A DNA stretch of 41,992 nt. Origin: a virus. Position numbers and translations under genes: made by a program. Shown here piece by piece: positions 9,927-31,000 of the stretch; within the stretch, counting starts at the first letter, position 1; every line of letters begins with the position of its first letter. The stretch is taken from positions 1 to 41,992 of the IMG/VR virus record IMGVR_UViG_3300032220_000267; one strand, given 5' to 3'. The notes below the pieces were generated by a model. That model did no database searches. It saw only the letters and a program-made list of their open reading frames with translations, and was not told the origin of the DNA.

Positions 9927-10112
9927 TTAGTTATTTATCTTTTCTTCAAGGCTATTAGAATATTCTTCTGTTGCCTTTTCTTTTAATTCTTTTTCTTGAG
10001 AGTACTGTGTTATTTCTGCTCTTAGTACAGCTATCTGTGTTTCATAATTTGAAACTAATTCGCCAATTCTTTGTTGTAAAGCCATGATAATTAATTCTGC
10101 TTTATTTTCCAT
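9927..10112 (-). CDS. Small coiled-coil protein
   Basis: This 61-residue protein is almost entirely a predicted helix with heptad-like hydrophobic spacing (MALQQRIGELVSNYETQIAVLRAEI) and an acidic/lysine-rich end. No catalytic residues are visible. A clear AGGGGTGAAATA ribosome site precedes the ATG. It follows two other short helical genes just after the fibronectin-type tail protein, so it may be a fibre chaperone or a small structural part; this is inferred from position only. Confidence 0.65.
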   Translation of the reverse strand: MENKAELIIMALQQRIGELVSNYETQIAVLRAEITQYSQEKELKEKATEEYSNSLEEKINN

Positions 10113-10130
10113 TATTTCACCCCTTATATT

Positions 10131-10343
10131 TTATGATAAAGAATCTAGTTCATCCTGCAGTATTTGTTTTTGAGAAGCAATGTCTGATAACTGATTAGTT
10201 AAAGTTTGTACATTCTTTTGATTAGGTTCTGACAAAGCTTGCTCTTGAGCTAAAGTTAGAGTTGCATTATATTCTAAGTATGCAATGTTTTTTAAATGCT
10301 GTAAAACAATTACAGATTTTTCTTCATTAGTAAGCTCTGACAT
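10131..10343 (-). CDS. Small helical protein, paralogue of the gene before it
   Basis: The 70-residue protein aligns along its length with the 71-residue product of 10351-10566: both share LTxEEK, QHLKN, a tyrosine and asparagine four to five residues later, a central Glu, and a C-terminal LxxExxSL. It is predicted as a helical hairpin with a coiled-coil second helix. The ATG follows AGGATAA. Function unknown; neighbours suggest tail-fibre assembly or a small structural role. Confidence 0.68.
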   Translation of the reverse strand: MSELTNEEKSVIVLQHLKNIAYLEYNATLTLAQEQALSEPNQKNVQTLTNQLSDIASQKQILQDELDSLS

Positions 10344-10350
10344 ATCTGTG

Positions 10351-10566
10351 TTATCCTAAAGAAGATATTTCTAGCAAGAGTGCAGATTGTTTTGCATTAA
10401 TGCTATCTATTTGTCCCTGGATCTCATCAATTACAATTTGCTGTGGTTGAACTGCAGCAGATTCCTCAACTAAAGAAATCTCCGAATTAAACTTAGAGTA
10501 TTCTAGGTTCTTAAGATGTTGATTGATAATATTAATCTTTTCTTCTTTTGTTAATATATATACCAT
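10351..10566 (-). CDS. Small helical protein, paralogue of the gene after it
   Basis: The 71-residue protein is the first of two tandem paralogues (LTKEEKINIINQHLKNLEY here, LTNEEKSVIVLQHLKNIAY in the other). It is helical with a coiled-coil C-terminal half. A very strong AAGGAGAAAAA ribosome site precedes the ATG and a promoter-like TGATATACT lies about 30 nt upstream, so this gene may start its own transcript after the fibre genes. Function unknown. Confidence 0.68.
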   Translation of the reverse strand: MVYILTKEEKINIINQHLKNLEYSKFNSEISLVEESAAVQPQQIVIDEIQGQIDSINAKQSALLLEISSLG

Positions 10567-10603: not shown

Positions 10604-10622
10604 TAGATTCTCAATAATCTAT
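10603..10622. repeat. Inverted repeat ATAGATT-6 nt-AATCTAT at a gene end
   Basis: A perfect 7-bp inverted repeat with loop CTCAAT spans the stop codon of the fibronectin-type tail gene. No U-tract follows on the minus strand, so an intrinsic terminator is unlikely; an operator beside the promoter-like site is possible. Confidence 0.35.
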
Positions 10623-13477
10623 ACTGGATCTGAACCAAATGATGGAGGGAAGAATGGACCAAATGTAGGTGGGAAGAATGGGAAGAATGGAGGGAAGAAT
10701 GGAGGGAAGAATGGAGGGAAGAATGGAGAAGCAGCACCTGTAGTTTGAGTTACAGTAGCATATGTTCCTGGAATCGTATTTTGATTTAATCCAGTCACAC
10801 TAATAGTGTAATTAGTATTAGGTAGTAGACCAGTCAATGGTCCAGAAGTTGTAGAAGTTGTAAATTTTGAGTATCCACTAATTGAAGTGCCATTGCTAGT
10901 TCTAAAAATATCAACATAAAATTGTGTAGCATTGGTTGATGACCAGCTTGCTGTAAAACCATTTGAAGTAACATTGGTAATACTAATAGCTGCTGGACCT
11001 GCTAACGTGCAAAATGATGTTGAAGAAGATACTGTATCGTTAGCAAATGATATTACAGAAAGAGATGGAGAGTACACAGTATTTGGAGTTAATCCAGTAA
11101 TTGATCTACTTACAGCACTTGTTCCTGTATATGGAGTAGATGGTGCACCTGGGATTGATATGGCGTAAGTTGATTGATTTGTAGATCCCCAAGAAAGTCT
11201 GGAAGAAGTAGCAGTAACTGCAGAAGATGAAAGTGCTGGAGATATTGTTGGAATAGTCATAGATATAGATGATGCAAATCCAGATACATTTGCATTTTTT
11301 GCTCTAACATAAAAATTATTACTTCCAAATAATCCACTTACACTGTAAGTCAATACATTGCCAATATCTACATAACCAAGGTTATTAATCTGATATTCAT
11401 AAGAAGTAACAGTTCCAGGGGGTGCCGACCATGTAAATGTTTTTGATCCACCATTTCCAGCAGACTTTGCTAAATTAGGAGGTGCTGCTGGAATTTCTGA
11501 TAAAGTTGTAAATGATACTCCAATAGCAGTTGCAGTATCTCCAGTTGGTGAAGTTATTGTTAGTCTTGGGCTATAGCTTGTGCTAGGAGTTAGTTTATGA
11601 TTAACAGCATAAAATGTTTCTTCATTTCCAGTAAACGGAGTGTCTGTGGCTCCTGGTATTGATAAAGAAAATGTAGATTGATTGGTAGTCTGGTTTGTCC
11701 AATTAAAAGCTGCACTAACTGATGATACTGGATAAGCATCTGGAAAAGAAGAAATTATTGGTACGGTAATTTGTCCACTAATTGCAGCTGGGCCAGGTCC
11801 TGATCCGTTACGAGCCCTAACATAGAAGCGTACATTAGTTCCACCAAAGTTTGTAAAATTAATAGAATTTACCAAACCAATATTTGTATAACTAAGTACT
11901 CCTCCAAATCCTTGGATTGCATATTCATAAGAAGTTGGAGTTGATCCAGTAGCTGGTGCACCCCAACTAAAAGTTTTGTTAGTCCCATCGCCTAGTGTTC
12001 TTTGTAGGTTTGTTGGCTCTCCTGGCACTGGGGCAAGTGTTGTAAATGAAGTTCCAGTGACTGTGTGTGTATCTCCAGTAGGTGAAGTAATAGTAAGTGT
12101 AGGAGTATAGGTTGTGCTACCTTGCAAATCAAGTGGTGGAGTTGTAGCTAAAGACTCTGTTGTTCCAGAGTATGGTGATGTTGCTCCTGATGGAGATAAA
12201 GATAAAGACCACGATGATTGATCATTAGATGCCCAGTCTATTTCTGCTGCAGTAGAATTTCTGGTAAGCATAAATGGTGCTGTTGTAATTCTTGGTACAG
12301 TAAATGATGGAGTTAAAACTGCAGATGATTCGTTATTGTTTGGTCCAACAGACCTTACAGAGAATACATTTTGTGATCCATAAACTGTTGTTAATGAAAC
12401 ACTAGTCAAAAGATTATTGCTAATCCAGCCTGAATCACCAAATGGGTTTGTGTATCTATACTCATATCGTGTTAATGTTCCTCCACCTACTGGAGCTGTC
12501 CAACTAAAAGTTTTTGATGTTCCATTTCCTAAAGTTCTCTGTAAATTTGTAGGAGGGTTTGGAGGAGTTTGAATTGGTCCCAAAACATCAAATTGTGTTA
12601 TTCCATAATCTGGTCCTATATTATAGTCAGTTCCACTATTTTTTTGTGTGTCAACAGCATAGTAATAAGTGTCTGATGGAATAGTTGATGGTGTGACTAA
12701 AGATGATGTTACATTATAAACATTAGATGTAACAGATGGAGTTGTAGTTGTTACCCCTGATGTTACTTCAGTTCCATATGCTTCTATATTATCTGCTGTG
12801 TATAATCCATTATCTGCTGTGTACCATTTTACTGAGCTTCTTGTAGAGTCTGGCAAGTATGGTTTAGTTCCATTCCATGATGAAGTGTATGTAAGTGTTG
12901 CTGGTAAACTTGTAGTAATTCCAGATATGGCAGCAGTTGTTCCTGTTTGTTTAACTGGATTATTTCTAATTAGTGGAATTCTATATCCAAGACCAGTTTC
13001 TATATTATCTGAATTATCTGAGCCAGTCGTTCCAGTTGTAGTTGTAGCTTTTACTGTTAGCAAAAGCCATTTGCCATCCCATGAATCTGTATCAAATGTT
13101 ATTGAAACATATGATCCACCCATAGATCTTTCAGATATAAGACTAGTATATGGTCCAGTTTCTAGTGTTGCAGAGTCTGAACCTTCAAGCTTATATTTAT
13201 ATGAAGATATCGTTTCACCATTACCGTCCCAAACTCCTCTTTGACCATATTTTGTTGAACCAAAAATAATAGGCTCAATCACATAATCATTTCCTGCTGT
13301 ATCTGAAGAAAAGTATGGAGCAGTTGTTGTAAATGGCCCAAGCTTACCAAAAATAAGCTTCCATTGAGATCCTACTTTTAATAAAGCTTTTGTTAGATTT
13401 CTCCATTCAGATCCTACTTTAAGTTTTAGGGAGGACAGATTTTTCCAACCATTGCTAGTCTTTAACTTTATAGGCAT
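10619..13477 (-). CDS. Fibronectin-III-repeat tail fibre/adhesin with C-terminal Phe-Pro repeat
   Basis: The 952-residue protein starts with short repeats built on LKVGSxWxNL (residues about 10-45), a motif often seen at the N-terminus of phage tail proteins. The middle is a chain of beta-sandwich modules. Three modules of about 175-180 residues each begin PxNLxRTLGxGTxKTFSWxAP or a close variant, include YEY and end near ITSPTGDT-x-SFTTL, typical of fibronectin type III pairs. The last 34 residues are dominated by a repeated FFPP motif before GSDPV. It probably binds the cell surface at the tail tip. It follows the other fibre gene by 24 nt containing three consecutive stop codons, and has a weak GGGGG ribosome site. 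The role is inferred from domain type and position. Confidence 0.8.
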   Translation of the reverse strand: MPIKLKTSNGWKNLSSLKLKVGSEWRNLTKALLKVGSQWKLIFGKLGPFTTTAPYFSSDTAGNDYVIEPIIFGSTKYGQRGVWDGNGETISSYKYKLEGSDSATLETGPYTSLISERSMGGSYVSITFDTDSWDGKWLLLTVKATTTTGTTGSDNSDNIETGLGYRIPLIRNNPVKQTGTTAAISGITTSLPATLTYTSSWNGTKPYLPDSTRSSVKWYTADNGLYTADNIEAYGTEVTSGVTTTTPSVTSNVYNVTSSLVTPSTIPSDTYYYAVDTQKNSGTDYNIGPDYGITQFDVLGPIQTPPNPPTNLQRTLGNGTSKTFSWTAPVGGGTLTRYEYRYTNPFGDSGWISNNLLTSVSLTTVYGSQNVFSVRSVGPNNNESSAVLTPSFTVPRITTAPFMLTRNSTAAEIDWASNDQSSWSLSLSPSGATSPYSGTTESLATTPPLDLQGSTTYTPTLTITSPTGDTHTVTGTSFTTLAPVPGEPTNLQRTLGDGTNKTFSWGAPATGSTPTSYEYAIQGFGGVLSYTNIGLVNSINFTNFGGTNVRFYVRARNGSGPGPAAISGQITVPIISSFPDAYPVSSVSAAFNWTNQTTNQSTFSLSIPGATDTPFTGNEETFYAVNHKLTPSTSYSPRLTITSPTGDTATAIGVSFTTLSEIPAAPPNLAKSAGNGGSKTFTWSAPPGTVTSYEYQINNLGYVDIGNVLTYSVSGLFGSNNFYVRAKNANVSGFASSISMTIPTISPALSSSAVTATSSRLSWGSTNQSTYAISIPGAPSTPYTGTSAVSRSITGLTPNTVYSPSLSVISFANDTVSSSTSFCTLAGPAAISITNVTSNGFTASWSSTNATQFYVDIFRTSNGTSISGYSKFTTSTTSGPLTGLLPNTNYTISVTGLNQNTIPGTYATVTQTTGAASPFFPPFFPPFFPPFFPFFPPTFGPFFPPSFGSDPV
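10645..10730 (-). repeat. 12-bp tandem repeat encoding the FFPP tail
   Basis: A purine-rich unit close to gggaagaatgga repeats imperfectly about seven times near the 3' end of the fibronectin-type gene and encodes the Phe-Phe-Pro-Pro repeat. Such repeats can change length by slippage or recombination. Confidence 0.85.
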
Positions 13478-13501: not shown

Positions 13502-16500
13502 TCAGCTATCTGGATCATAAACAAGTAAAACAGAACCACTTGATGCTGATGGAAATACACTTGAATTATATTGACCCTCTGTAATAGTAAACATGTTTCT
13601 TAAGCCACCAGAACGTCTATCTTGTTCACTGTCTGTATAACCTCCAGATATTTCAGCATTTTTTGCAACTTCAACTTGTCTTCCTTCTTGTCCTAAGAAA
13701 ATTCTTTTTATTGTTGTACCTGCAACTAATTCTGTTTTAAACAAAGATATTGGAGATAGTGGATTTGTAATATCCATAATTCTAAAAGAACTATTTGAAT
13801 CTGATGATATTTCAAAATTTCCTACTTTAATTGAGCCACCGCTAGATAAATTAATTAATGCAGTTCCAGTTGCAGTTATGGATGCTGATGTTGTATCACC
13901 AGTTACATCCCAACCATTAACCAGTGCAGCAGTAGTTGGATTATAATATCCAAACCCTCCAAGTTTAGCTTTTATTGTTCCTATAATTGTAGCATTCTGT
14001 GCAAATAGATCACCCTTTGTTGTTACAGAAAATGGAGCAATTGACGGATCTGAAATATTTCCAGCTGAAATAGCATAACCAGTATCTCCAGTTGCCCTTA
14101 AAACAATACCATTAGTTGATAAAGATGTTTTTGATGCAATAATAATTGATTGATCTGATGAACTAATTCTTATATAATTAGCCTTTATAACACCATCTGA
14201 TATTACCCATCCAGATTCTTGATCTGCTCCAAACAAAGCTTTACTACTCCACATTGTAATACCAGTAACTGCTGCTGCTGTTTTAGTAAGGTCTAATGCA
14301 TCTATAATATTTACTGATTGTGGAGATGAATATATTTTTGTAGTTGCTGCATTAGAGGCATTTAATGCTTGTAGACCCATTGAACCTATCTGTACGTTTG
14401 GTCCTACGTTTACTCCACCACTACCAGCAATCAAATAACCATTTCTAACGTTTACGTTTGCATCAAAGTATGATTGACCATCAACCTCAATCGTGCCTTT
14501 AATGATTGCAGATGCTGCAGTTAGTGCTCCTGCCTGTGTTACTATAAAGTTTGATCCACCTGCACGGATTAAGTCTCCACCAGTACCGTCGCCATTTATA
14601 GTTATTTTACTAGCAACAACTTCTCCAGTTGGCTTAACAGAAAACTTAGCAAGTCCATCAGAGTTTAAAGATGATTCTGCTCCAGCCCAGAAAGCATAAG
14701 TTTGATTTGCAGACATTCCAGTATAATCATTATTTAAACCTGATGCAAACAAAGTATTTTGCAGACCATCTGGAGATATGGTCCAGTTTCCAATTACTGC
14801 TCTCTTAGTAAAAAATGTAGGCTCTTCTGATTCAGCACTATTTATAATCTGTGTTGTCCAGTCACCGTCGGCATCGTATGCAAACAGTCCATCCCTATTA
14901 AAAAATACTTGTGGATAAACAGTATGATCTCCAGCACCAGAAAAAATAGAACCATCAGTTGCTATTTTAATTGGAAATTCAATAAGAGATTCTAACCCAA
15001 TATCAATTGGAGTAACCTCTACACCAGAAGTTTGTCCAGATTTTTGCATGCTGTAATAAGAATAATTATCATACTGGTCATAGTAACGAACAATGACATA
15101 CCTTGTGCTATTGTCTGGTGTTGGAATACTTGCAGGGCTAACTCCAGAATAAACAACATTGTCGTCGTTTGTTGGAATAACAGTCCAAGCTGTTGATTTT
15201 TCATATACTTCTAGTCTACTAGCTCCTACTGGCATATCAAAATCAACAATGTATCCACTAGCAGATGGAGTTACTCTAAATAATCCTGTCGGTGTATTTA
15301 CATTTGGTGTTCCTAATGTTGGGTATATGTTTGCTAATGGGTTGGGTCTTTCTACTGGTCCAGCAGATATTACTGCTCCTGTTGTTTCAATTCCCTGTGC
15401 AGACACTGATGTAACATAAGCTTTAAACTTTGAGTAGTATGTTCCAAACTGCCCATACATGTCTAGTGAAAGAATTTTAAATGATGTTTCTGGTGGAACT
15501 ATAACATGATAAAAGTGTGCATATAAAGATGTACTTTCTACACCATTAACATAAGGAACAAGTTTTACTTTAACAGTGGTTCCAGCGTTAGTTGCTGGTT
15601 GAGTAAAAGAAACAGATATATCATTTCCTGACCAAGCAATACTTGCAGCAGTAAACTGAGTTGGTGGATCTGTATTTGTTGGCATAAATGGTAAAGGTGT
15701 GATATCTTTAATATCTGAATAGATTGAAGGTTCACCATACTCTTTAATATATCTTACTCTAACCCAACGATGTAGACCATCTGGTGTATAAACAACTACA
15801 CTTGTACCACTGCTTATTGGTGCAGCTTGCTGCCATCCTGCTGTTAGGCTTACATTAGCTTTAACTAATTCTGTTGTAATTTTTTCTTCAATAATTGCAC
15901 CTAAATAATTTCCTTTACTTACCGCTAAGGCTATATTTTCTGGAACAAAAGTAACTAAATAATAGTCAATACCAGCAGAAAGGGTAAACTCTGGCTGTGG
16001 CAAATCTGAAACAAATGCTGGCATATTAGCTTCTACATATTCACCAACATTTAATATGTCAGCTGTTGCAACAGAAACTTTAGTTATGTTTGATATAATT
16101 GTGCTTATGTCTAAACTTTGAGCTATATCTTTTGCTGATAAAAATAATGTTTGTGATTGTGATATATAGTTTAAGAATGTTGAGCCAGCGTAACCAAAAC
16201 CTGCTTTTAAGTCTGTCCATTCTTCTGTTTCAGAGTCATACACTCTTACTAAAAATCTATCTATAAATATGTTTGCTAAATTAGAGGTATCAAAATTAAA
16301 GGTTAATGTTATTCCCCCATTAGGTCCCCAAGCACCAACTAGATTTGTTACTCCTAGTGGTGGAATACCTTTGCCTGGTACGTCTGGATCTTTTGTAGGC
16401 TTTGGAGTTTTAGGATTGCCATCTGAAGCAACTGGTCTAGAGTTTATATTTAATCCACCAACAGCTAAAGACTTTCCATCAAGACCAACAATATCAATTT

Positions 16501-16621
16501 CTGATCCCTGTCGTGAAAGAGTTTGTTTTATTTTATCCCATGACAGTCTTGGATCATCAACATCAATAGATATCGTTGGATTTTTTGCAACAGACTTATT
16601 ATTTCTATATTCTGACTTCAA
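13502..16621 (-). CDS. Tail fibre / minor tail protein, TTG start
   Basis: The 1039-residue protein has a flexible proline/lysine-rich segment near 66-90 (PKTPKPTKDPDVPGKG), fibronectin-III-like beta modules in the first half (for example from 88 and 320), and a C-terminal half rich in short GTIxA/GTIEV strands and Gly-Ser-Asn turns, as in trimeric beta-helical fibre shafts that follow the J-type hub of siphoviruses. It is probably the central fibre or a host-recognition fibre. No ATG lies near the start; TTG at 16621 follows GGTGA at a suitable distance. The frame is continuous with the upstream lectin-like gene apart from one TAA and four codons. The region 780-1039 may contain the receptor-facing tip, but I see no enzymatic motif. 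Confidence 0.78.
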   Translation of the reverse strand: MKSEYRNNKSVAKNPTISIDVDDPRLSWDKIKQTLSRQGSEIDIVGLDGKSLAVGGLNINSRPVASDGNPKTPKPTKDPDVPGKGIPPLGVTNLVGAWGPNGGITLTFNFDTSNLANIFIDRFLVRVYDSETEEWTDLKAGFGYAGSTFLNYISQSQTLFLSAKDIAQSLDISTIISNITKVSVATADILNVGEYVEANMPAFVSDLPQPEFTLSAGIDYYLVTFVPENIALAVSKGNYLGAIIEEKITTELVKANVSLTAGWQQAAPISSGTSVVVYTPDGLHRWVRVRYIKEYGEPSIYSDIKDITPLPFMPTNTDPPTQFTAASIAWSGNDISVSFTQPATNAGTTVKVKLVPYVNGVESTSLYAHFYHVIVPPETSFKILSLDMYGQFGTYYSKFKAYVTSVSAQGIETTGAVISAGPVERPNPLANIYPTLGTPNVNTPTGLFRVTPSASGYIVDFDMPVGASRLEVYEKSTAWTVIPTNDDNVVYSGVSPASIPTPDNSTRYVIVRYYDQYDNYSYYSMQKSGQTSGVEVTPIDIGLESLIEFPIKIATDGSIFSGAGDHTVYPQVFFNRDGLFAYDADGDWTTQIINSAESEEPTFFTKRAVIGNWTISPDGLQNTLFASGLNNDYTGMSANQTYAFWAGAESSLNSDGLAKFSVKPTGEVVASKITINGDGTGGDLIRAGGSNFIVTQAGALTAASAIIKGTIEVDGQSYFDANVNVRNGYLIAGSGGVNVGPNVQIGSMGLQALNASNAATTKIYSSPQSVNIIDALDLTKTAAAVTGITMWSSKALFGADQESGWVISDGVIKANYIRISSSDQSIIIASKTSLSTNGIVLRATGDTGYAISAGNISDPSIAPFSVTTKGDLFAQNATIIGTIKAKLGGFGYYNPTTAALVNGWDVTGDTTSASITATGTALINLSSGGSIKVGNFEISSDSNSSFRIMDITNPLSPISLFKTELVAGTTIKRIFLGQEGRQVEVAKNAEISGGYTDSEQDRRSGGLRNMFTITEGQYNSSVFPSASSGSVLLVYDPDS

Positions 16622-16633
16622 CTTGTCACCAAA

Positions 16634-17170
16634 TTATTTTGGACCTGTTGCAGTCCAGTTAAGATAGAAAGCGGTGGCTTCAATGGGATCTGGTCTTGTT
16701 GCAGCATTTGTATTGTCTGGTTCAGCAATAGCTCTATTAATTCTAAAGCTGAACTTACTTGTAGTAACACCAAATATATTAAAAATAAAGTCATAGTGAT
16801 TATTATTAATGGCACCTATGTCTGCATGGCCAAATTGAATGGTACCCGTTACTATTGGGTTTGCAGAAAAGGCAGTCGTTCCGCTTTCATCTACAAAGTC
16901 TATATCTCCATAATAAATCTGTTGATTAGATATAGAAGACATTTGACCTGGAACAAGCTTGACTTTTCCATATAACATTTTTTGTGACCCTGGATCAAAC
17001 TGATTAACAAAACCGCTTGAACCGTTATAGTCAATTCCAGTAGGGGCAGCACTGCCTAGATTGTTAGTTACAGAATCAATGCTATCGCTATGCTGATTTA
17101 CAACATTAATGACTTGCTGCCATGCAGCAAGGTCAATTACTTGTGGATCTGATATTTTTACATATGCCAT
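16634..17170 (-). CDS. Tail protein with H-type-lectin-like C-terminal domain
   Basis: The 178-residue protein has a short helical N-terminus (DLAAWQQVINVVNQHSDSIDSV, heptad-like, possibly trimerising) and a beta-sandwich from about 68 to 176. The second part follows the H-type lectin pattern: GKVKL, then FVDESGTTAFSANPIVTGTIQF, a central YDFIFNIFGVTTSKFSFRI and a terminal YLNWTATG matching the family's closing strand. H-type lectins bind N-acetylgalactosamine and related sugars, so a role in host-surface binding is inferred. The ATG has a GGAGATCAAA ribosome site, and an extended -10 promoter-like site (17191-17199) precedes it. The lectin assignment rests on pattern only. Confidence 0.6.
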   Translation of the reverse strand: MAYVKISDPQVIDLAAWQQVINVVNQHSDSIDSVTNNLGSAAPTGIDYNGSSGFVNQFDPGSQKMLYGKVKLVPGQMSSISNQQIYYGDIDFVDESGTTAFSANPIVTGTIQFGHADIGAINNNHYDFIFNIFGVTTSKFSFRINRAIAEPDNTNAATRPDPIEATAFYLNWTATGPK

Positions 17171-17190
17171 TTTGATCTCCTATTTTATTA

Positions 17191-17199
17191 ATTATACCA
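17191..17199 (-). promoter_or_regulatory. Extended -10 promoter-like site (TGGTATAAT)
   Basis: The 42-nt gap between the hub gene and the lectin-like gene reads TGTGGTATAATTAATAAAAT on the minus strand: a perfect TATAAT with TGn extension and no clear -35. It is one of the two best examples of the recurring motif. Confidence 0.5.
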
Positions 17200-17212
17200 C
17201 AGCACGTACTCA

Positions 17213-20200
17213 TTATTTTATTCCACTTAAGCCTAGGGTTGTACTTAAACCACTATCAAATGATTGGGAAACGCTTGTTACCAAGTATTTTTGGTTTAGC
17301 ATACCGTTTAAGGCATAAGAAACAGTTACAATATCACCAATCTGAATCAATGGATTTCCAAAAATGCTTAAAGAGAGCTTTGTTGAAAAACCATCTACTC
17401 CCATTTCAACTATTCTTAACATTTTTCTAGCAGCAGATTTTGACTGTATCCATTGTGAATCAAGCTGTGCTGTGTCCCCACCATTTGATTCAACCAAGAG
17501 CGCCTCTAATATTTCAGGCTCAGATGGTGCTACAATTTCATGTGTCCATAGATTTAAATTTACTGCAACCTTTATAACTTCATCTGATTCTTTTGTTAAA
17601 AAAACCATATGAGGCGAGCTATTTGCTATAGCCATTCTTGCTCTGAACCCTGTATTTAATGGTGTTGAGTATGATAGAGAATCCTCAGTTACTAATTTTT
17701 TTTGCTTATATAATTGTTCTTCTTTTGTTGCTCCTGGAAAATAAGACATCATGTATTGAATAGGAAATACGTCAACTGATACTGCTGCAGGTGTTGAGTA
17801 TTGTACATCGTAATAGTTTATGCCAGAAATCTCTGGTGTAGTTTGTACTATATAGGTTAATGAGTTAGATGCTAATGGTTGGTTTTGAACCATACCGTTT
17901 AAAAATTCTTGATCTTGATAAAAATATCCAGCGCTTCTTGAAAGAAGTGGTTTTTCTGTAGCGTGTATTTCTCTAAGGTTTGCAACATAATTCATAGAAG
18001 TAGGCTCTGGGTAAGTTATATTTGGAAGTGATTTTGGAGCAATAGAAGCATAGAATCCAAAACTTTTTGATTGTTCATATATTTTTGGAACAGATGGCTT
18101 TTGCCTAATTTTTGTTATATTGTTTAGATTTGTTGTAGTCCAGTCTGCATCGCTAGTTGATGTATCAGGAACTTGCCAACCTATAACTTCTACATCATTT
18201 AAGAAAATAGATAATGCTGTTGATGGATCTTCAACTGTTCCGTTTTCACCATCGGAGCCGTCTGTTTGATTAAGAACAACCCTTAAGTTAAAAAATGGAT
18301 CAAATACGTATGAATATGTTGGATCAGGTGGTGTTGCACCTGAGTTTTCTTTAAATATTTTTGGCAATTTATTGAGGGCAGTATTACATTCACCAGTAAC
18401 ATCAGTATAGGCGTACAGTGCTTCTTCATCATATATTGCCAACATATATGTGTATTTTGGTGGCTCATAGAAAAAGCCCTCAGAGTTTGTTTTGCTAAAC
18501 TTAATTAATTCTACGAACAATGGATCAGAAGATGACACACTACTTTGGTTAATGTAAAGTCCAGCTGCAGCAACATACTGGTCTAGTATATCAAACTTTA
18601 CAGAATATGTTTTATAAGATCTTGTTGTTTCAACAGCAGGACGAACCACTGTTTTGTTTGTACCTGAAGCACGAAGTCCTAGCTTTGTTACATTAGGAAG
18701 TTTGTCATCTTGCTCATTGCTATTTGTAATAATTATATTTGAAAGACCACTTGTATTATTAGAAAAAACATAGCTTGAGCTAATAAGTTTTTCTTCTAAT
18801 CCCTTGCTTTGTAGTGTTGTTATCCTGCTATGATTTCTTGGTGTTGTTCCAAACATTCCACGTTGAACATTAGTGATGTTTCCTGTAGTAGTTACCATAA
18901 CATCTGATGTTGAAGCAGTAACAGCAGCACCTGCTTTAGTTACTGGATTAAGTGAATGCGATTTTGTTAAAATTTCAAACTGAGTAGGTGTTGGTTCAAA
19001 CATAACTATTCCAGAAAGATTAAAGTTTGTTGGAATCATACCACTAATAATAACTCTATCTCCTGTAGAAAAATTATTTTCAGCATAGTACGTATTTATT
19101 ACACCATCTCCTTCTGCATCTGTAACTATTGCAGACTTTTGTTGTAGTCCAACACTATATTCTTTTATGTAATCATTTATTGCTCCAGACAACTCATTAT
19201 TATTTTTAATTGATACTGTTTTAGGCTGGGTTCCATCTGCCTTAGAAATGATGTACTGTTTATACTCAAAAGACATTATCTCACCTTCTACTGACACATA
19301 CCCATTTGCATCTCTATTAAAGGTGTGGAATATGTCACGGAGATCATTTGTATTAATGTTTAAATTAGTAGAGTCTATATCCATGTCATCTTTTAAATAG
19401 TTAAATCCAACAGAATCAATTGATTGCTGTTGCCAAACAACATCATTAGAGGTTGTATAAATAAATGCAGGAGAATTTTTTATATCAATGTCTTTTACAT
19501 TTTGTAATGATGGAGACTGCTTAACCTTTGGGCTTTGATATCTTAAAGAAATTTTACCTGGTTTTTGTTGATTGGCTACGGTCAGGCCTCCTTCCATTAT
19601 GTCTGAATCTGATATAGACAAAGATGAAACCTGATCAGATAAAATATCATAAAGACTTAAGAACCTCATTATGCCGTATTCATCAATATACGCACCAATT
19701 TGATAAGCAATAAAAATTTGATTTAATGCTTCAATAAGAGTTACATCTCGTGAGTTACAATAGTAGTACGCCATGTCAACAGGCTGTGCTTTATTGTTAC
19801 AAATCTTGTGTAGTGAGTCATAGTCATAATCTGTAAACCCTGACAAATCAAGAATGTTTGTTATTATTTCAAAGACAGTCTTTAGGTTTGCTACGTAGTC
19901 TGGAGCAGGTCTTGATTGTAAGTATCTAGAAATGTCGTAAGCTTGAACAGTAACTTCTTTAGTGTCGTTTTCTGTCCAAGCGTCAGAATAAAATACTCCA
20001 GACGGTATATAAGTATTTGTGTATGAGGTTACAGACGTGCCACTTACTGCGCTGTTCTGTAAATTAAAACTAACATAAAATTTAATATTATTACGTAACA
20101 TATTAGAAAGTATGGTTAAAGAGTTGTTACTTTGATTTGAAAAGATAGGAACAATTTCACCATTTTTTGTTAATGGTATTCCTGAAAAAGTTAAAGATAT

Positions 20201-21580: not shown

Positions 21581-22053
21581 TATCTCTCCACAAATTCAAT
21601 ACTCATATCAACATAATCTGAAACCTTGGTTCTATTAATAATGGTTTTGGAAAAATCATTCATAAACACCTCATATGTTTTAGATCCATTCTGTGCTGTA
21701 ACAAATACTCCTAATGGCTGTGATCCAAAGCCTGAGTCTGTATTAAGTCCTGAAGATACAACCTTTAAATAAATAGGAAGTCCTGCATTAGACTTATAGA
21801 ATGACTCAAGCCAAGCAGCGCTATAAAAACCATCAACACACTCAGATTGCTTTGAAGGAACATATTTCCAAGAACAAGAAATATTGTTTTTTTGAGCAAC
21901 AACATATTTTCTCATTTTGCCATTGGCCATGCGGGATTGTGTTTCAATTAGCTCTGGAGTAATATCAATAGGCTCTCTATTGTGATCTGTTAACTTATAC
22001 CAAGTGGTACCGTCAATAGAAATCTGTATTCCTGAATCAATTAAATATGTCAT
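21580..22053 (-). CDS. Distal-tail-like / minor tail protein
   Basis: The 157-residue protein is beta-rich (IQISIDGTTWYKLTD at the start, YVDMSIEFVER at the end) with Trp and Tyr in the strands. It sits between tape measure and hub, where siphoviruses encode the distal tail ring protein; its length is close to the N-terminal ring domain alone of Dit proteins. It starts at a TAATG overlap with the tape-measure stop codon and ends at another with the hub gene, so the three are translationally coupled. The function is inferred mainly from position. Confidence 0.68.
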   Translation of the reverse strand: MTYLIDSGIQISIDGTTWYKLTDHNREPIDITPELIETQSRMANGKMRKYVVAQKNNISCSWKYVPSKQSECVDGFYSAAWLESFYKSNAGLPIYLKVVSSGLNTDSGFGSQPLGVFVTAQNGSKTYEVFMNDFSKTIINRTKVSDYVDMSIEFVER

Positions 22054-25000
22054 TATCTTCCCACCATGTTCGTTTTGTTGTTCTTATTCTTTGCTCTATC
22101 TAATTCTACCATAACGGCTTGTGCTATTTCTTTTTTATTTAAATCGCTACCGTTGATATTAATAATGTTAGTGGTTGGTGAGGAAGATGAATAGGTTTTG
22201 TTTTCTTCCTTCGTGAGAACACGCTCACCTTGATGAAGCTGTGCAACCATATCATTTGGAAGATAATCTATTCCAGTAGCAAATGATGGAAGGTTATATC
22301 TAGCACTAATTGCTTTTTGGTTTATTAATCCATTCTGTGTTATTAATCCACCAGAGGCTGCACCTGTGATTCTTTTTCCTTTGGGTACGTGTGCAGGCGT
22401 CAGCCTTCCTTCACCCAACAGTGGAAAAATTTTTCCATATTTTTGATATTGATATATAAGTCTTTCAAGCGTTGATTCCATTATTTCTAGATGATTCTGC
22501 CCATACCCATAAGATAAATCCTGCCCAATATAAGATGGAGTGGTAGCTAGTTTCAATATCTCTTTTGGCAAAATGGTTCTAATTTCTTTAATACGTTTTT
22601 CAGGATCTAGTGTTGTTAATACTGAATGGTGTGATCCTCCCATCGTGGCTCCGCCTTCATGAGCTATAGTATCTATGACCCATTTTGGACCTTTTTTACC
22701 CATTTTGCTAAATGCTTCATTGAGTTGTATATTAGTATAACCCTCTACTCTATCTTTAGTTCTATATTTACTTTTAAGAGTCATTGCTATACCTGGTACT
22801 CGTTCACCAGTTAATAACTCTCTAGCTTTTGCTTTTGGGTGTCCTAGCACATTGATATAGTAATCTTCTAGTGCAGCATAACCTTTTTTATTTTGTGACC
22901 ATAAAGATTTTCTGCCTCCTCGCATATCCCAAATTTTTGAAAGACTTTTTGGTTTATTCCATATAGTTTGCTGCAGAGCTACTGCATCTGCTGTTGAATT
23001 TTTACCTGTAGCGTACTGTAATGCCTTTGTTTTATCTACTGTTGTAAATAGATCAAAATTCATTATGTTTCCATGTAGGTGTTTTATTTCTCCAGGCGTC
23101 AATCTATTAAGTAGAGTATCTGGAAGCGCACCTCCATGGAAAGTTGGCATTTTAAATAAATCACGTAATGAAGGGTCGTACTTTTCTGGAATCTCAGACA
23201 CAGAGCGTGACCAAGCCATATCTCCTTCTCCAGCGACTGCATTAATATTTTTTGCTGCACGTAAAGCTTTTATGCTACCAACTGGTGTATATCTGTATAT
23301 GAAGTCATCTAGATTTTCTTTTGATAAATTGTTTATCGTATTGGAAACAAGATTTTTAGAGTGTTGATATTCACCCTTAATTAATCCAGTTCCACGCTTA
23401 ATTGGATTCGTAACTAAAGGTTTTAAAATTTTATCGTTAGCTGATTTTGCAATTAAGCCAAGAAGTTCTCCATAGGCTTGTGATCCGTAATAAAATTTGT
23501 TGCTAACCCCCATGAACGACAAGAAATCCTCTGGGTCTGGCTCTTCTGCAAACTTATCACGTCTATATTGTGTATTAATCATCTCGTCATAGTATGATTT
23601 ACCAGTGCTATAACTATAATCATATCCCAGTTTGCCTTGAAACATAGTAGATGGCTTAGGTATTTTTTTACGTAATTTATAGTTATTAACTCCTTTTATT
23701 TTTCCTAAAGTGTTCCAAAAACCTGATTGCAATAATTCTTGTCCAAATGTTGGTGTTTGTTGTGCAGCTCTTTTTGCTGCTGATTTAATCAATGATGGTG
23801 TTTTTGCTACAGGAGGCTTCTTTTTAAATGGATTACCAAATGGTTGAGATAACTCTTCAATTTTTGGTCTTAAGGAATTGAACTGGTTTCTTATAGGTTC
23901 TGGAATTTTATTTGCTAGTTCAATAGCTTTTGGTTTTAGTAATGGCCCTAATTTTTCAGCAATTTTTCCGAACCCAACTCCAAGGCCACCTCCAATTAAT
24001 GTAGAAATTCCCATATTAATTAATGAATCAAGAGGATTCATACTGTCTAATTGTGCTTTAGGATTAAAACCTTTTACGTTAGAGTACGTTCCGCCCTTTA
24101 CTCCATAATCAGATCCGCTTTGAGCAAGACCAACTATTCCTTCTCCCAAACCATAACCTGTACCAATAAGAGCACTCAAAGGGGTTGCACTTGTGTATAC
24201 TCCTGAAAAAGCACCTTGTAATGCATTAAATGCAACTCTACTAAGTGCTCTGCTCCATTTAGAGAATCCAGATGCATTTTTATTTGCACCCCATCTTAAT
24301 GAAAGTGCTTTTTCTAGCTCTTCCATTGCTTGGTATGCAGCGGCTGATCTGGCACCCATACCAAACATTTGCTTTTTTGAAAGTTTTCCAAGGTCAGAAA
24401 CACCACCAGGACTTCCTTCACTAAATCTCTGAGCATTCAATGCATCAAATGTTTCTGTTCCATATTTCTTTACAGAAGATGCTCTAATTACATACTCTCC
24501 ATCTGAAAGATACGCAGGTATTGAATCAGAGGTTGCAGTTCCTGCACCAAGGATATGTCCACCTGTATTGTAGCCTTTAGGCTTATTAAGTTTAGAATTA
24601 GCAAACGGTATCTTTCCTGAATCAGTTTTTAATCCAAATCCTGGATATCCTACATTCCAGTTTGTTACAATGCCGTCTTCTGTTTTATAACCAGAGTATC
24701 CTTTGAGGCGAAGGAAGTTGGCAAATTCATCGCTTAAGTATGTAGGTTCAGGTAAACCAGTTTGTTTTGCAAAAAGCGCTCTTTCCGCTGGCAGTTGTGC
24801 ATCTGTTATTGCGCCTTTTCCGAATGCAGTTTTAAGCCAAGCAAGAGGGGACAGGCTAAGCTTGTGTGCGTTAGTTGAAAATTGATCACTTGCATACGTG
24901 GTGCTGTCAAGTGCACCGTAGGTACCAGGTCCATAAGTATGCATTGCATCTGTTCGTCTTCCTATGTTAGGAGTTAGAGCATCTGGTGAATTATGTGCAA

Positions 25001-28000
25001 AGTGCGTCCAGGCTTTTGCATCTTTAATGTTTTGTGAAATTTTAGAAATTTTATTAGGAATTGCAAATGCTAACTGCTTTAAGAATGGTAAAATTTTAGA
25101 AATACCACTTTTAGCAAACCTATTAAGTCCACCAGTCCTGAAACCTTTTACAGCACCGCCATTAGCAAAGTCTGTCGTCTGTTTATAAACAGTTTCTTTA
25201 AACCAATCTTCATCAATAGGCATTTTTGCTATCTTTTCATCCCAGCCAAGTGTTGGTTTAGCAGATAATCTATAAGCAATTGCTCTTCTAACGTTATCTA
25301 TATATTTTTGATATATTGGTAATATAATATCTGTTTTGTCATACCCAGATTGAAATAGCATTTCTGCAATCTCAGAATCTTTTATGCTAGATAGCGTTGC
25401 TTCTGCTCTTCTTAACCCTTCTAAATATGCAGGTCTTTCAGAATCTGGTAGTTGCACATATTGTTGGTACTGCTTATTTACTATACTATCAAAGGATTTA
25501 TCTGTTGCAAACATAGGCATTGAGTGTTCAGAGTCTCCAATCCTACCAAAATCAATTGCTCCAGATTTTTTTGTTTTTGGATTTAGATATAAGTTACCTC
25601 CATGAAGATCTGAATATCCTATTGCAGATAATATTGTATCTCTATAAGATTTTTCAGAAGTCATATCCAAGGCAGCATAAATATCTGCAGGCAATAAATC
25701 ATGTACATCAGATTTTCTTTTAAGATTTAGTTGTAACTTATTATATAATGTTCTCTCACTAATTGAGCCTGGAGATAAATCTTCTAATGCTGCACTAAAA
25801 ACTGAAATGTCATTTGGTGGCTCAAATACTGATGATTTAACAGCAGTATTAGTTGGTGCAAGCAAATCAGCTCGTCTTGCAAAAAGTGAACCAAAAACTT
25901 CTCTTCTTGCTTCTTGTGGAGTCATTTCTTGTAAAGACTTTAGATAACCTTTTTGTCCAGTTGGTATATGTTCTACCTTGTTTACAGTATTTAATGACGA
26001 CATAAAATTTTGTGACTGTGCAAAATCTGAGTAATCCATTATTTCTGGAAACACTATTTTTTCATAAGATGAAGATTCCTGTATTATTCTAGCCTTGTTC
26101 CTGGCAATGTCAGCAGCAATCATGGCATCCATCCACTCTTGCTTTTTCTGACTTGAAGTTAATAATGAAGCGCTGGGTGCAGATTTTGAACCAAAAAGTT
26201 TTGAACTAATTAATTTACCTATACTAGATATACCACTTTTAGCAATTCTGTTAATTCCACCAGTGCTAAAACCTTTTACTGCTCCACCATTAGCAAAACC
26301 TCGCTCTTTAAATGATAGGTCTGAAAATCCTACGGCATGCCCAGACTGTCTTTTTCGTAATTTTAATTCTTCAGCTTTTTTAGCAAGTGCTGCTGCAGAT
26401 GGTTGTTTTACTGGTGCTGGAACTACGCTTGCTGCCATTGATTGGAATCGTGACCAATCTACTCCTGGTGCTGCTCCAGCTTTTAGTCTACCTATCAGAT
26501 TTGCATAAGATTGTATTTCATCTGGATCAGTGAGATTAAATGATGCTATGGCTTCTTCTACTAATGGAATTTGTCTGTTAATTTCTTTTATAATTGCATC
26601 ATTGTATTCTGATGGTGTCATTGATTGTGCAATTGGTGCTGTTGTTTCAGCAAACCATCTTTTTGCCCCGCCCTTTACACCTAGTAAATTAATAGCAGCC
26701 TGGTCTTGCATTGATGGCATTGAGGTAGACAGCTTTCTCATTCCAGAAGCTAGATCGTATACTCCTGAAGTTCCTGCATCAACAAGATTTTTTCCAGACA
26801 AGTTTGCTTTTTGTAAATCTTTATCTCCACGCCACAGTGATGCAACCAGTTGTGTTATATATTCACCCTGTGTAAATTCTCCAGATGGGTTTGCAAATTC
26901 TGGATTATAAGCAGACCTTAATGCTAGCAGTGTTCTTGTTGCTTTTGCATCTGAAGGATCCATTATTCTTATTAAATCTTGAATTGGTGTAGTTAGTCCA
27001 ACTTTTCTTGAAATTACATTAGATCTAATTTCAGATAAACCAGATAAAGAATCTGTTACTGGCTTGACAAATTCTTTTGTTCCATTTGCTCCCTCATATA
27101 GACCACCAATTCCTCTGACTGGAAAGCTTTTACCAACTGTTGCTTCTAGTTGTTTTCCTAATTGTGTGATTGGAAGATCTTTAAAGTTACCATTTTTAAT
27201 AGCAGCATCTATTACCTTCATTGTTTCTTCAGCTGTACGGGCTTCTTCTAATGCTTTTATTCCACGTGGCATTCCAAGGAATAAACCTCTACCAGCACCC
27301 ATTCCCATAAAGTTAAGTGGCAGCATAGATGCTCCTAGAGCGTCTCCACCTTTACCTTGTCCAGCAATAAGTCTTAATAGTTGTGCTGTTCCAAACATTT
27401 CAGCAGCTGGTGTATCCTTAGAATTAAATCCAGACACATATCTTTGGAACCAATTTTGTTTTTTAGATGCTGGCTCTCCATACTTATGCTTATGTCCAAC
27501 AGGGCCTCCCTGGTGGAATCCTTTAGCATTCCGCAGTTTGCGTATATTCTTAAGCACTGGGTTAACTGGGCTGCTGCCTAATTGAATTCTGTTTGCGACG
27601 TCACCCCAGTTGAGACCTGTTGATTCCTGTGCGGTGGTTGTCAGCTTGCTTCCACCTTTTCCAAGCATGTCTCCAACTTGTTTATACCAATCTTCATTCA
27701 TAGATATTTTTGGTATATTTTCATCCCAGCCTTTTATTGGTTTGGCAGCAAGTCTACCTTCAATTGTCTTTATAACATTATCTATATACTGTTTATTAAT
27801 ACCCAAAAGTCCACTTATTTCAGACTTCTCATATCCAGATGCAAGTAGCATGTCTGTAATCTCAGCATCTTTTATACCAGATAGAGTCTCTGATGCTTTT
27901 CTTAATCCTTCTAGATAAGCAGGTCTTTCAGATTCTGGTAGCTGAACATATTTTCTATAATATTTATTTTCTAAACTCTTTAAAGCATTATCATTATTCC

Positions 28001-31000
28001 CACCAAACTTAGCTATAGAGTGTATAGAGTTTCCAGTTCTTCCAAAATCAATTGCACCAGAGTTTTTCTGCATTGGATTTAAAAATAAGTTACCTCCATG
28101 ATTATCTGAATAACCCATAGCATCTAATATTGCATCTCTATAAGATCTTTCAGAAGTCATTCCTAAAGCAGCATATATTCTTGCAGGCAGTGCAAAAGTT
28201 CTGTCATCCATTGCTTTAGAAGGAGCTAAGTTAAATGCTTCAAACACAGACTTTTCACTAAATGAGCCTGGAGACATTTCATCTAATGATCTGCTGAAAA
28301 CTCCAAAATTATATGGGTACTTTTTGCCAGTTTTAACAGCAGTATTTTCTGGAGCAAGTATGTTGGCTCGTTGTGCAAAAAGTGAGCCAAAGACTTCTCT
28401 TTGTACTTCTTCTGGAGTCATTTCCAAACTAGTTTTAAAATATCCCGATTTGCCACTTGATAAAATTGTTGCTTTCTGCACATTATTTAGTGAAGTATTA
28501 AGTGAACCAAAAGTCTGTAGGTCTGATTGATTTAGCATTTTTTCAAATTGAAGTCCTTCATAAGGTGAGGATGCGCCAATTCTTACTTTTATTACATCTA
28601 ACATCTTTACTCTATTAGCACGATCAAGTTGTCTATGCCATTTGTCAATACCCTTTAATTCGGCCCTGGCTGCTTTTGCCTTATCTTTAAATGCTTTCTG
28701 TTCAGCCCTGATATCTGCTAGCTCTTTTACCATTTTTTGATTTAATGACAATGAACTTAATTCAGGAGTACCTTCAGGACCCATTGCATATACTGTAGTT
28801 TTTGGAATTGCTACTGATTTAGCACCAGAACTAACTTTTCCTAATCCACGAACTCCAAGCCCAACTCCTGGCAAAACACCAAGAATATCTGCTAAAACAC
28901 CCAATTTTTGATTTCCAAAAATTTCTGGGCTTGTGTTATTTTTTAAATTAAATGCAGAGGTATAACCAGAAAACATCTGAGCAGTTTGTAAAGCCATGTA
29001 ATCTTTTTCTTGCTGTGTTACTTTAGATTTAATATTAGTATTTGTATTAAAAGTATTAGATGCACCCATATTAAACATACCGCTAAGCATTGAAGATATT
29101 GCATTTACTGGATTGAATCTGCTAAAGAAATTTCCATTTGTATCCTGATGAGGATGTGGGTGTACGTAACCACCTTCGTGGAATCCCTTAGCGTTCATTT
29201 CAATAATCTTGGCTCGCATTGCGGTCTTAGATAAATCGCTAAGGATTTGGCTTTCTACTTCACTTGCAGAACCCATGCCAGCATCTACGTACTTATACTT
29301 ATCGTGTCTGCTATAACCAACAGTTCCATCGCTACCTAGCCACGAGTACGCAGGCCCGTCAGAAACTTTTATTGGCTTAGTAAGTTTAGCAGCAGCCTTT
29401 GCTGCGCCACCCCTTTTAGCCATTTCGTATGCGTACTTGGCATAGGCAGTAGTACCTTTGCGAGGTGCTTGAATTAACGTATTTGTAAGAGCGTCATGAG
29501 GGTGTGGGTGTACGTAACCACCGTCATGGAACATTTGTCCGCCACCGCCACCAAGTAGCCCACCAAACCATGCTGATGCGCCAGAACCAACTAATGGAGG
29601 AGTAATTTTGTCAAGACCCATACCTGGACCACTGGATTTACGTAATTGCTCTGCTAGCTGATGCCAGTAATCTGAGAATTGTCCTACCTTGCCATTAAAT
29701 GGAAGTCCTGGAATTTCAACTCCGCCCCATGGATCTTTACCAGCATTATTAAATATAGGCTTTCCATTTTTATCAAACCCAATAGGAGATCCCTGATACA
29801 GTCTTTCTAGTTCTCCCCAGTAGCGACCATATGGACTTCCAGTAGGTTGGTTTTTAGAGTTGTATGGTGATGATGGTTTTTTCCATGAAGGAATAACTCT
29901 TCCACCTTCTGCAAACTTTCCAGCATTCAATGCATCAAATGTATTAACACCGTATTTTGCAACAGAGTCTGCTTTAATTACATATTCACCATTTGAGAGA
30001 TATGCTGGTATAGAATCAGATGTTCTTGTGCCTGGACCTCTTACATTTCCACCAGGTTCAAATCCTTGTACTTTTCCACCAGTGTTAAATTTAACTGGTG
30101 CGCCATCTCTATCAAATCCTCCTGTAGCAAGGAACCATCCCTTATAGTATTTTCTTGCTGGTGCTTGTGTTACAAAATAACTTTGTGTTCCGACTTGAAA
30201 ATGATGATAAGGAATTCCGAAATCATATAGTATATTTGATGTTTCTTTTTGTGCTTCTGCAGCAAGTTTTGCTAGATTTACTTTTCCTTGAGGATTATCT
30301 ACTCTTTCTTTATCTGCTGCAGCCTTTGCCTCTGCTGCTGCCTTTGCCTTTGCTGCAGCTCTTGCTGCATCTGCTGATTTTTGTGCTGTAACAGGTGGAG
30401 TTACTGTCTCGTTAGAAGTTCCAGATGTTGTTGACGTACCTGAAGAAGTTCCAGATGTTGCTGACGTACCTGAAGAAGTTTCAGATGTTTTTTTCTTTAT
30501 AGCACTAGATACTCCTGATTCAGCCTTAACAAGTTTCTTTTCTAAGTCAGTTACTTTTGCTCCATTTTCTAAAGCATCAATTCTATCTTGAATATCTTGA
30601 ATTTGTCTTTCAAGATCAAGCTCTGCAGTTTTTCTATCATACTGACTCTTATTATAAAGCTTTTGTTGTCCAAGAAGTGCTGCCTGTATATAGTTACCAG
30701 AAATTTTTGCCTGAGCCATGTCAGCATCAAGCTGTTGCTGTTTTTCTTGGAATTCTTGCTGACGATCAAGTTCATCATTGACACCTTGAAGAGCTTTCTG
30801 TTTATCTTCTAATAACTTTATTTCTTTTTTAAGTGCTTCAATTACTTTTTTAGATAAATCAGACAAGCCCTTTCCAGCAGTAGGGTTTTCTATGTACTCA
30901 TTTGTTTTTTTACTAGCAAAAAATTCATCATATGATTTTGTTGTAGCTTCAATAAGATCTTTAAACTTTTGTATTCTTATACCTGCAAAAACCTTATCGC

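Follow-up and report, generated by a model that had tools for sequence, protein, structure and literature searches.

The substrates of algal prolyl 4-hydroxylases (P4Hs), like those of the plant extensin type, are Pro-rich repeats in an extended polyproline-II form, and they have adhesive or structural uses outside the cell. A P4H (vP4H/vCPH; 5c5t) is also encoded by Paramecium bursaria chlorella virus 1, and 4-hydroxyproline in viral proteins was proposed for this enzyme (Eriksson 1999, as cited in PMC9301287). Viral P4HA genes are described as abundant, with a use that "remains cryptic" (PMC9301287). EGLN3-like phage proteins are widespread (PMC12774648) and the 2-oxoglutarate (2OG) oxygenases of cyanophages have been tied to nitrogen metabolism and to the metabolism of 2-oxoglutarate (PMC3037559). 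In the available parts of these three papers, phage 2OG oxygenases are annotated as auxiliary metabolic genes, and a fibre array is not proposed as their substrate. Our literature search, which omits most subscription journals, found no work that joins proline hydroxylation, bacteriophage and tail fibres. Here we describe a Phe-Phe-Pro-Pro (FFPP) array at the C-terminus of a tail adhesin, which is encoded in IMG/VR record IMGVR_UViG_3300032220_000267 (classed linear; the whole stretch of 41,992 nt is called the window). We show that the class of aromatic-proline arrays to which it belongs is coupled in genomes, by array type, to tandem enzymes with a prolyl-hydroxylase fold, and that most array-carrying phages have several tandem 2OG-Fe(II) oxygenase genes in one operon, in which the array gene comes first.

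These FFPP-linked enzymes resemble the chlorella virus P4H in that they are encoded by viruses and match it in profile and fold. The difference is that here several tandem copies are present in tailed phages, directly behind the gene of an aromatic-proline fibre. The enzyme fold is also common to the algal P4H with (Ser-Pro)5 (2jig/3gze). In contrast to extensin-type proteins, which carry Ser-Pro, the repeat here is [F/Y/H/W]FPP; there is no Ser-Pro repeat in the window array, and hydroxylation or glycosylation of FFPP is putative. Collagen-like phage tail fibres possess extended Pro-containing repeats too, and one of them adjoins the FFPP gene in records G003 and G005. However, those are Gly-X-Y triple-helix repeats, whereas Gly is nearly absent from FFPP arrays. 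Phage 2OG-Fe(II) oxygenases of PHROG 61 belong to the same superfamily as the FFPP-linked enzymes, but the P-SSM4 gene lies away from fibres.

The array of the window and its class

An earlier sequence-only reading had taken positions 10619-10730 for the end of a tail adhesin, built from FFPP units that are encoded by 12-bp tandem repeats. The gene is indeed the last of the tail module, encodes an fn3 domain and follows the tape measure and minor tail genes, and the array with its stop codon falls within a few bases of that span (Table 1). Tandem Repeats Finder reported a 12-bp period at 10642-10728 (7.5 copies, 76% matches, with indels), and the repeats are in the frame of the adhesin gene. 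The adhesin has five FFPP, whereas none of 20,000 shuffled versions of its sequence had more than two. The window contains the two-unit DNA pattern twice, and this pattern is absent from all of 100 shuffled windows. The array (residues 918-952, PFFPPFFPPFFPPFFPFFPPTFGPFFPPSFGSDPV) consists of 35 residues, of which 14 are F and 14 are P, and is an imperfect repeat in which FFPP is interspersed with one FFP and with TFGP and SFGS units. The reading knew of no assigned function for such a tail, and we agree: the array has no match in Pfam, PHROG or PDB, and nothing relevant was found on FFPP with phage, or on FPPFFP, in a literature search that leaves out most subscription journals. An AlphaFold model of the window C-terminus had a predicted local distance difference test (pLDDT) score of 42 and was uninformative for the tail.

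Aromatic-proline end arrays, ([F/Y/H/W]-F-P-P)n with FFP mixed in, make up a widespread class on the tail fibres and adhesins of phages, and the window tail is one of its short members. Fibres of many lake phages end in these repeats. An exact-match scan of IMG/VR for FFPPFFPPFFP yielded at least 120 contig stretches, whereas a control scan with Tyr in place of Phe (YYPP pattern, equal degeneracy) yielded one match. The viral arrays are [F/Y/H/W]FPP repeats on fibre proteins and are longer than the window array. In 84,980 cellular genomes, the FFPP pattern was found in 17 stretches, few of which encode convincing proteins. Four of the cellular matches (L127, L131, L138 and L139) resemble phage fibres and come from metagenome bins; apart from these and L136, the matches are mostly in short or unrelated frames. 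Host mimicry was rejected because the motif is nearly absent from the cellular genomes. Positions 894-1208 of L136 encode a 105-aa protein of Marinithermofilum abyssi with the end FFPPFFPPFFPIFPFFGPPFFGPFWW, which may be the sole genuine cellular protein with the motif. When 50,697 phage records were searched by tblastn, there was no match to the window adhesin or to two other FFPP fibres, and a third FFPP fibre, that of L046, gave matches through its S74 domain only. The array class is common in viral metagenomes, yet it is missing from the family libraries and from the literature searched.

In viral proteins, the array is located near the C-terminus, behind fn3-like or PASTA-like domains. 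After the array, the protein ends (often with xFK or a Cys-rich tail) or continues into a Hint-like domain, an S74 chaperone or further fn3-like domains. In L046, the array reads ...FFPPAFK directly into an S74 trimer-chaperone domain, and 27 of the 129 arrays, which are without S74, end at the same xFK. By their sequence, these xFK ends resemble what would be the mature end of the S74 form. A trimeric stalk tip had been suggested for the window array. A rigid, extended stalk or tip is compatible with these observations. A Pfam search found no S74 domain in the window adhesin.

Hint/intein-like domains stand directly behind FFPP arrays in L010, L043, L057, L112 and others, with weak matches to PF13403 and PF14890. 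By a simple motif rule, 13 of the 129 arrays are followed by such a domain, for which self-cleavage or lipid attachment of the fibre end is a possible role. Homologous fibres carry other aromatic arrays at the same place, (PYSFTP/PYSFVP)n or (PFGVFGFSP)n, often before a Hint-like domain (L384, L386, L392, L402, L404, L410, L415, L421, L427 and L436). Judging from these proteins, there appears to be a wider class of exchangeable aromatic end arrays.

Selection acts on the peptide while its DNA drifts. Among 902 units with repeats on both flanks, 714 were FFPP, 136 YFPP, 16 HFPP and 7 WFPP, and the other 29 were mostly TFGP-like. Residue 2 was Phe in all 902 units. At position 1 of intact xFPP units, only Tyr, His and Trp replaced Phe, and Leu, Ile, Val and Met were never observed. 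We compared the 873 units that are at most one residue from FFPP with the reference TTCTTCCCACCA. There were 1040 synonymous differences, whereas the non-synonymous differences were in codon 1 alone (Tyr, His, Trp) and none was at residues 2-4. Because synonymous sites vary freely (47 versions of the 12-mer in 1206 units) while residues 2-4 stay fixed, we conclude that selection is on the protein.

Position 1 demands an aromatic or imidazole ring and not mere hydrophobicity. This requirement counts against simple membrane insertion. The sequence-only reading had considered that the tail may insert in a membrane or cell envelope layer, and a Phe content of forty percent and the location of several arrays at the very C-terminus would agree with this idea. 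However, position 1 takes Tyr, His and Trp but no aliphatic residue, half of the positions are Pro, and arrays of up to about 100 aa have folded domains (Hint, S74, fn3 or Cys-rich) after them. We consider insertion into a membrane or a lipid-rich envelope layer of the host highly improbable.

Alternatively, what is maintained might be the DNA: the repeat could be a site where fibre ends are shuffled by recombination, or a slippage tract, with the peptide tolerated as a linker. The preference for TTC codons in arrays, which is independent of GC, the varied C-terminal modules after the array, and the different array lengths between otherwise identical flanks would fit such a role. In contrast, the 12-mer varies at its synonymous sites while residues 2-4 are fixed, which makes this explanation very unlikely; a chance or DNA-only repeat was rejected on the synonymous/non-synonymous pattern. 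In the arrays of 122 loci (for example, L080 and L083; positions 10642-10723 in the window), 85% of the Phe codons are TTC as compared with 22% elsewhere. Dipeptide context was rejected as the cause of this preference because, at low GC, FF pairs that lie outside arrays are encoded by TTCTTC in 7% of cases, and high GC was rejected because TTC use in arrays does not climb with genome GC. Translation through Pro-Pro and avoidance of T-runs are guesses.

Repeat number varies among relatives, as had been anticipated from the sequence. L141, a relative with 84% identity, has one 12-bp unit fewer than the window array, and the array of L142 is rearranged; these three arrays differ by whole units. 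L143, L146 and L148 possess much longer arrays, which are followed by another domain. L048 and L039 share 400 bp of flanking sequence on either side with 100% identity, and their arrays are 88 and 103 aa, a difference for which assembly collapse is possible.

The arrays are coupled to tandem prolyl-hydroxylase-fold enzymes

In L036, L042 and L043, the FFPP fibre gene is directly followed by genes for 2OG-FeII_Oxy_3 proteins. PF13640 was above the cut-off in 45 of 50 FFPP records, many of which have 6-13 copies, and in none of 35 random viral contigs, a coarse control because these contigs were unmatched for habitat and length. Adjacency was tested with the 96 FFPP genes that have enough downstream sequence. 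In 64 of them, a same-strand enzyme gene starts within 1 kb downstream, as compared with 0.35 expected at random positions in the same loci. We also searched from the enzyme side. The seeds were FFPP-linked enzymes, so the result does not describe the superfamily at large: among 47 loci with at least 3 kb of upstream sequence, 45 carry an FFPP array and one more carries GFFAPP/GFFSPP.

To hold the fibre family constant, homologous fibres were fetched by their N-terminal fn3 part alone. An oxygenase gene is present within 2.5 kb downstream of all 59 fibres with FFPP, in contrast to 3 of the 13 with PP-free arrays (PYSFTP, PFGVFGFSP). The Fisher p value for this comparison is 5e-10, which overstates the evidence because independent co-changes are few. 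The fibre tree has three changes of array type, two of them on well-supported branches. Over random pairings, the enzyme follows the array in 1.6 of 2, and a change in the opposite direction never occurs. Pfam was also run on whole records, 13 with each type of array: those with FFPP have 6-9 PF13640 copies and those with PP-free arrays have 0-2. Ten genes from just downstream of PP-free fibres gave no PF13640 match. The link recurs with non-homologous fibres (fn3 type, 50 of 53; PASTA-like, 7 of 7; singletons, 4 of 6).

A profile of five enzymes was compared with PDB. The best matches were the Bacillus prolyl 4-hydroxylases 3itq/5hv0 (2.6e-7), and PiuC, the chlorovirus P4H 5c5t (2.9e-5), prolyl 3-hydroxylase and LH3 were also matched. 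The AlphaFold model of the first enzyme (pLDDT 88.8) has a double-stranded beta-helix fold of the P4H/PHD type. The top folds in Foldseek were PHD2 with HIF peptides (1.8e-10), the algal P4H with (Ser-Pro)5 (2.5e-9) and P. putida P4H. In 24 sequences, H158, D160, H212 and K222 never vary; these residues are the HxD, the distal His and the Lys at +10. All ten paralogues in G003 possess HxD and His, with Lys or Arg near +10, and the best PHROG for the FFPP-linked enzymes is phrog_61. The enzymes thus share their fold and active site with protein prolyl hydroxylases, and they may act as hydroxylases of peptidyl proline.

Proposed hydroxylation of fibre tips and alternative explanations

From the gene arrangement and the enzyme fold, we are inclined to think that these phages hydroxylate prolines in the aromatic-proline tips of their own fibres. 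An extended tip or stalk similar to polyproline II is the probable structure of the arrays, and its ring-bearing side chains would make the contacts. The tandem 2OG-Fe(II) oxygenases would hydroxylate the array prolines during fibre assembly. By analogy with hydroxyproline in collagens and plant extensins, hydroxylation might make the very hydrophobic repeats soluble and stiff, and might provide the adhesive surface with hydrogen-bonding groups. More tentatively, the array may belong to a dedicated fibre-finishing cassette in which prolyl hydroxylases, as many as ten paralogues, give it a pattern of hydroxylation, so that the adhesive surface would be set by post-translational chemistry plus sequence. 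If this is true, the cassette would be a hydroxyproline-based adhesin in viruses of bacteria. Moreover, the adhesin chemistry of lake phages would not be readable from the gene alone, which would matter for host prediction. The association gives one subgroup of phage P4H-like genes a concrete candidate substrate, namely the FFPP array of the fibre next door.

Another explanation, possible but rather doubtful, is that the aromatic-proline array stays unmodified, as an extended stalk or sticky tip that attaches to the host envelope through ring stacking, and that the oxygenases of the same island act on host glycans, other virion proteins or small molecules. PYSFTP and PFGVFGFSP arrays occupy the corresponding position of homologous fibres that lack the cluster, so an aromatic array is able to function by itself. 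Furthermore, the window adhesin does not adjoin enzymes, and genes for DUF6065, SDR and sulfotransferase-like proteins are also present in these fibre islands. However, the cluster tracks the array type and not the fibre family and recurs with non-homologous fibres, and the nearest folds of the enzymes are protein prolyl hydroxylases.

Because relatives with the same adhesin sit on contigs of up to 114 kb, the window is a fragment. In G003 (114 kb), the polymerase is 94% identical to that of the window and there are 13 PF13640 copies. G003 encodes a homologous adhesin near 19 kb and a second fibre near 67 kb, which has two fn3-like domains and 39 FFP units. A collagen-like gene lies before the second fibre gene, and of the about 13 genes after it, ten are oxygenases. 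G004 and G005 resemble G003, with an FFPP fibre followed by an oxygenase cluster. Among 33 records of the window polymerase lineage, there is one FFPP record, G099 (113 kb), in which nine of ten PF13640 copies form a run directly behind the FFPP gene. These relatives suggest that the window phage itself may carry the cluster. Its array would then be modified in trans; a close relative has a second, longer FFPP fibre with about ten of the enzymes behind it. We infer both the adhesive role and the validity of the explanation for the short array of the window.

Several points weigh against hydroxylation of the arrays. The 42-kb window fragment has no oxygenase (PF13640) gene, and the window-type large adhesin adjoins an oxygenase in none of 9 cases. 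FFPP-free records of the lineage, 90-116 kb in length, have 0, 0, 5, 6 and 5 scattered copies. Some PF13640 genes have no FFPP beside them, such as the one that P-SSM4 carries between uvsX and gp41; because this gene is among replication genes, the cyanophage genes were treated as a separate group and not as the same system. The independent co-changes are few (three, two of them well supported), and in these the enzyme changes in the same way or shows no difference. Ten paralogues seem many for one substrate, and the array as the enzyme substrate rests on genomic association and fold. Finally, collagen-like repeats are present in 13 of the 151 loci that have both an oxygenase and FFPP.

The last point raises the idea that the hydroxylases act on collagen-like fibre proteins encoded by these phages, with FFPP as a bystander. 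Immediately upstream of the FFPP fibre gene and the cluster, G003 and G005 have a collagen-like gene (PF01391, E 1e-8 in G003). However, such repeats are too rare near the clusters, so collagen was rejected as the main substrate, and the prolines are mostly at X of Gly-X-Y, which is not the usual P4H position. Thus, this explanation is unlikely. The collagen-like proteins directly upstream of the second FFPP fibre are encoded at L270:17505-18221 (PF01391) and L271:8750-9457. In L270, the FFPP fibre gene is at 16388-17461 and the oxygenase gene next to it at 15519-16229. The window adhesin has no Gly-X-Y repeats in its sequence, and Pfam yields only fn3.

Genes around the adhesin

The features of the window are listed in Table 1. 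The order of the siphovirus tail module is tape measure, a 157-aa protein, minor tail protein, a 178-aa protein, the 1039-aa protein and, last, the adhesin. Beyond the adhesin there are replication genes, which encode a primase, a helicase, SSB and a DnaE-like polymerase. The polymerase is closest (55%) to those of Streptomyces phages, Wakanda among them, so the host of the window phage is likely an actinobacterium.

Table 1 Positions of the adhesin, its array and the surrounding genes in the window
Feature	Position	Strand	Basis
Tail adhesin / fibre-type protein, 952 aa, with fn3 domain and C-terminal Phe/Pro array	10619..13477	-	Open reading frame, fn3 match; array-bearing homologues in L141-L149
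fn3 domain directly before array, residues 828-901	10775..10996	-	Pfam PF00041, E 9e-13
Phe-Phe-Pro-Pro array, residues 918-952	10622..10726, stop 10619-10621	-	Five FFPP, one FFP, TFGP and SFGS units
Upstream tail-module protein, 1039 aa, without family match (Pfam, PHROG)	13502..16621	-	
Minor tail protein, 1455 aa	17213..21580	-	phrog_10359, E 6e-37
Tape measure protein, 4557 aa	22053..35726	-	phrog_10030, E 5e-103; PF10145
Small protein p71, directly after adhesin gene, kept in relatives	10351..10566	-	
Small protein p70, paralogue of p71	10131..10343	-	
Small protein p61, kept in relatives	9927..10112	-	

After the adhesin gene, three small genes (9927-10566; 71, 70 and 61 aa, the first two paralogous) are conserved in relatives. 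No Pfam match was found for p71. These small genes are candidate fibre-assembly partners. The tape measure gene (22053-35726) has 18-bp and 30-bp tandem repeats inside, at 30313-30359 and 30414-30489. Tape measure proteins correspond to a tail length of about 0.15 nm per residue, and 4557 aa imply a very long siphovirus tail of roughly 0.7 micrometre. At 2-787, the window encodes a nuclease with PHROG matches to CRISPR-associated and Cas4-domain exonucleases.

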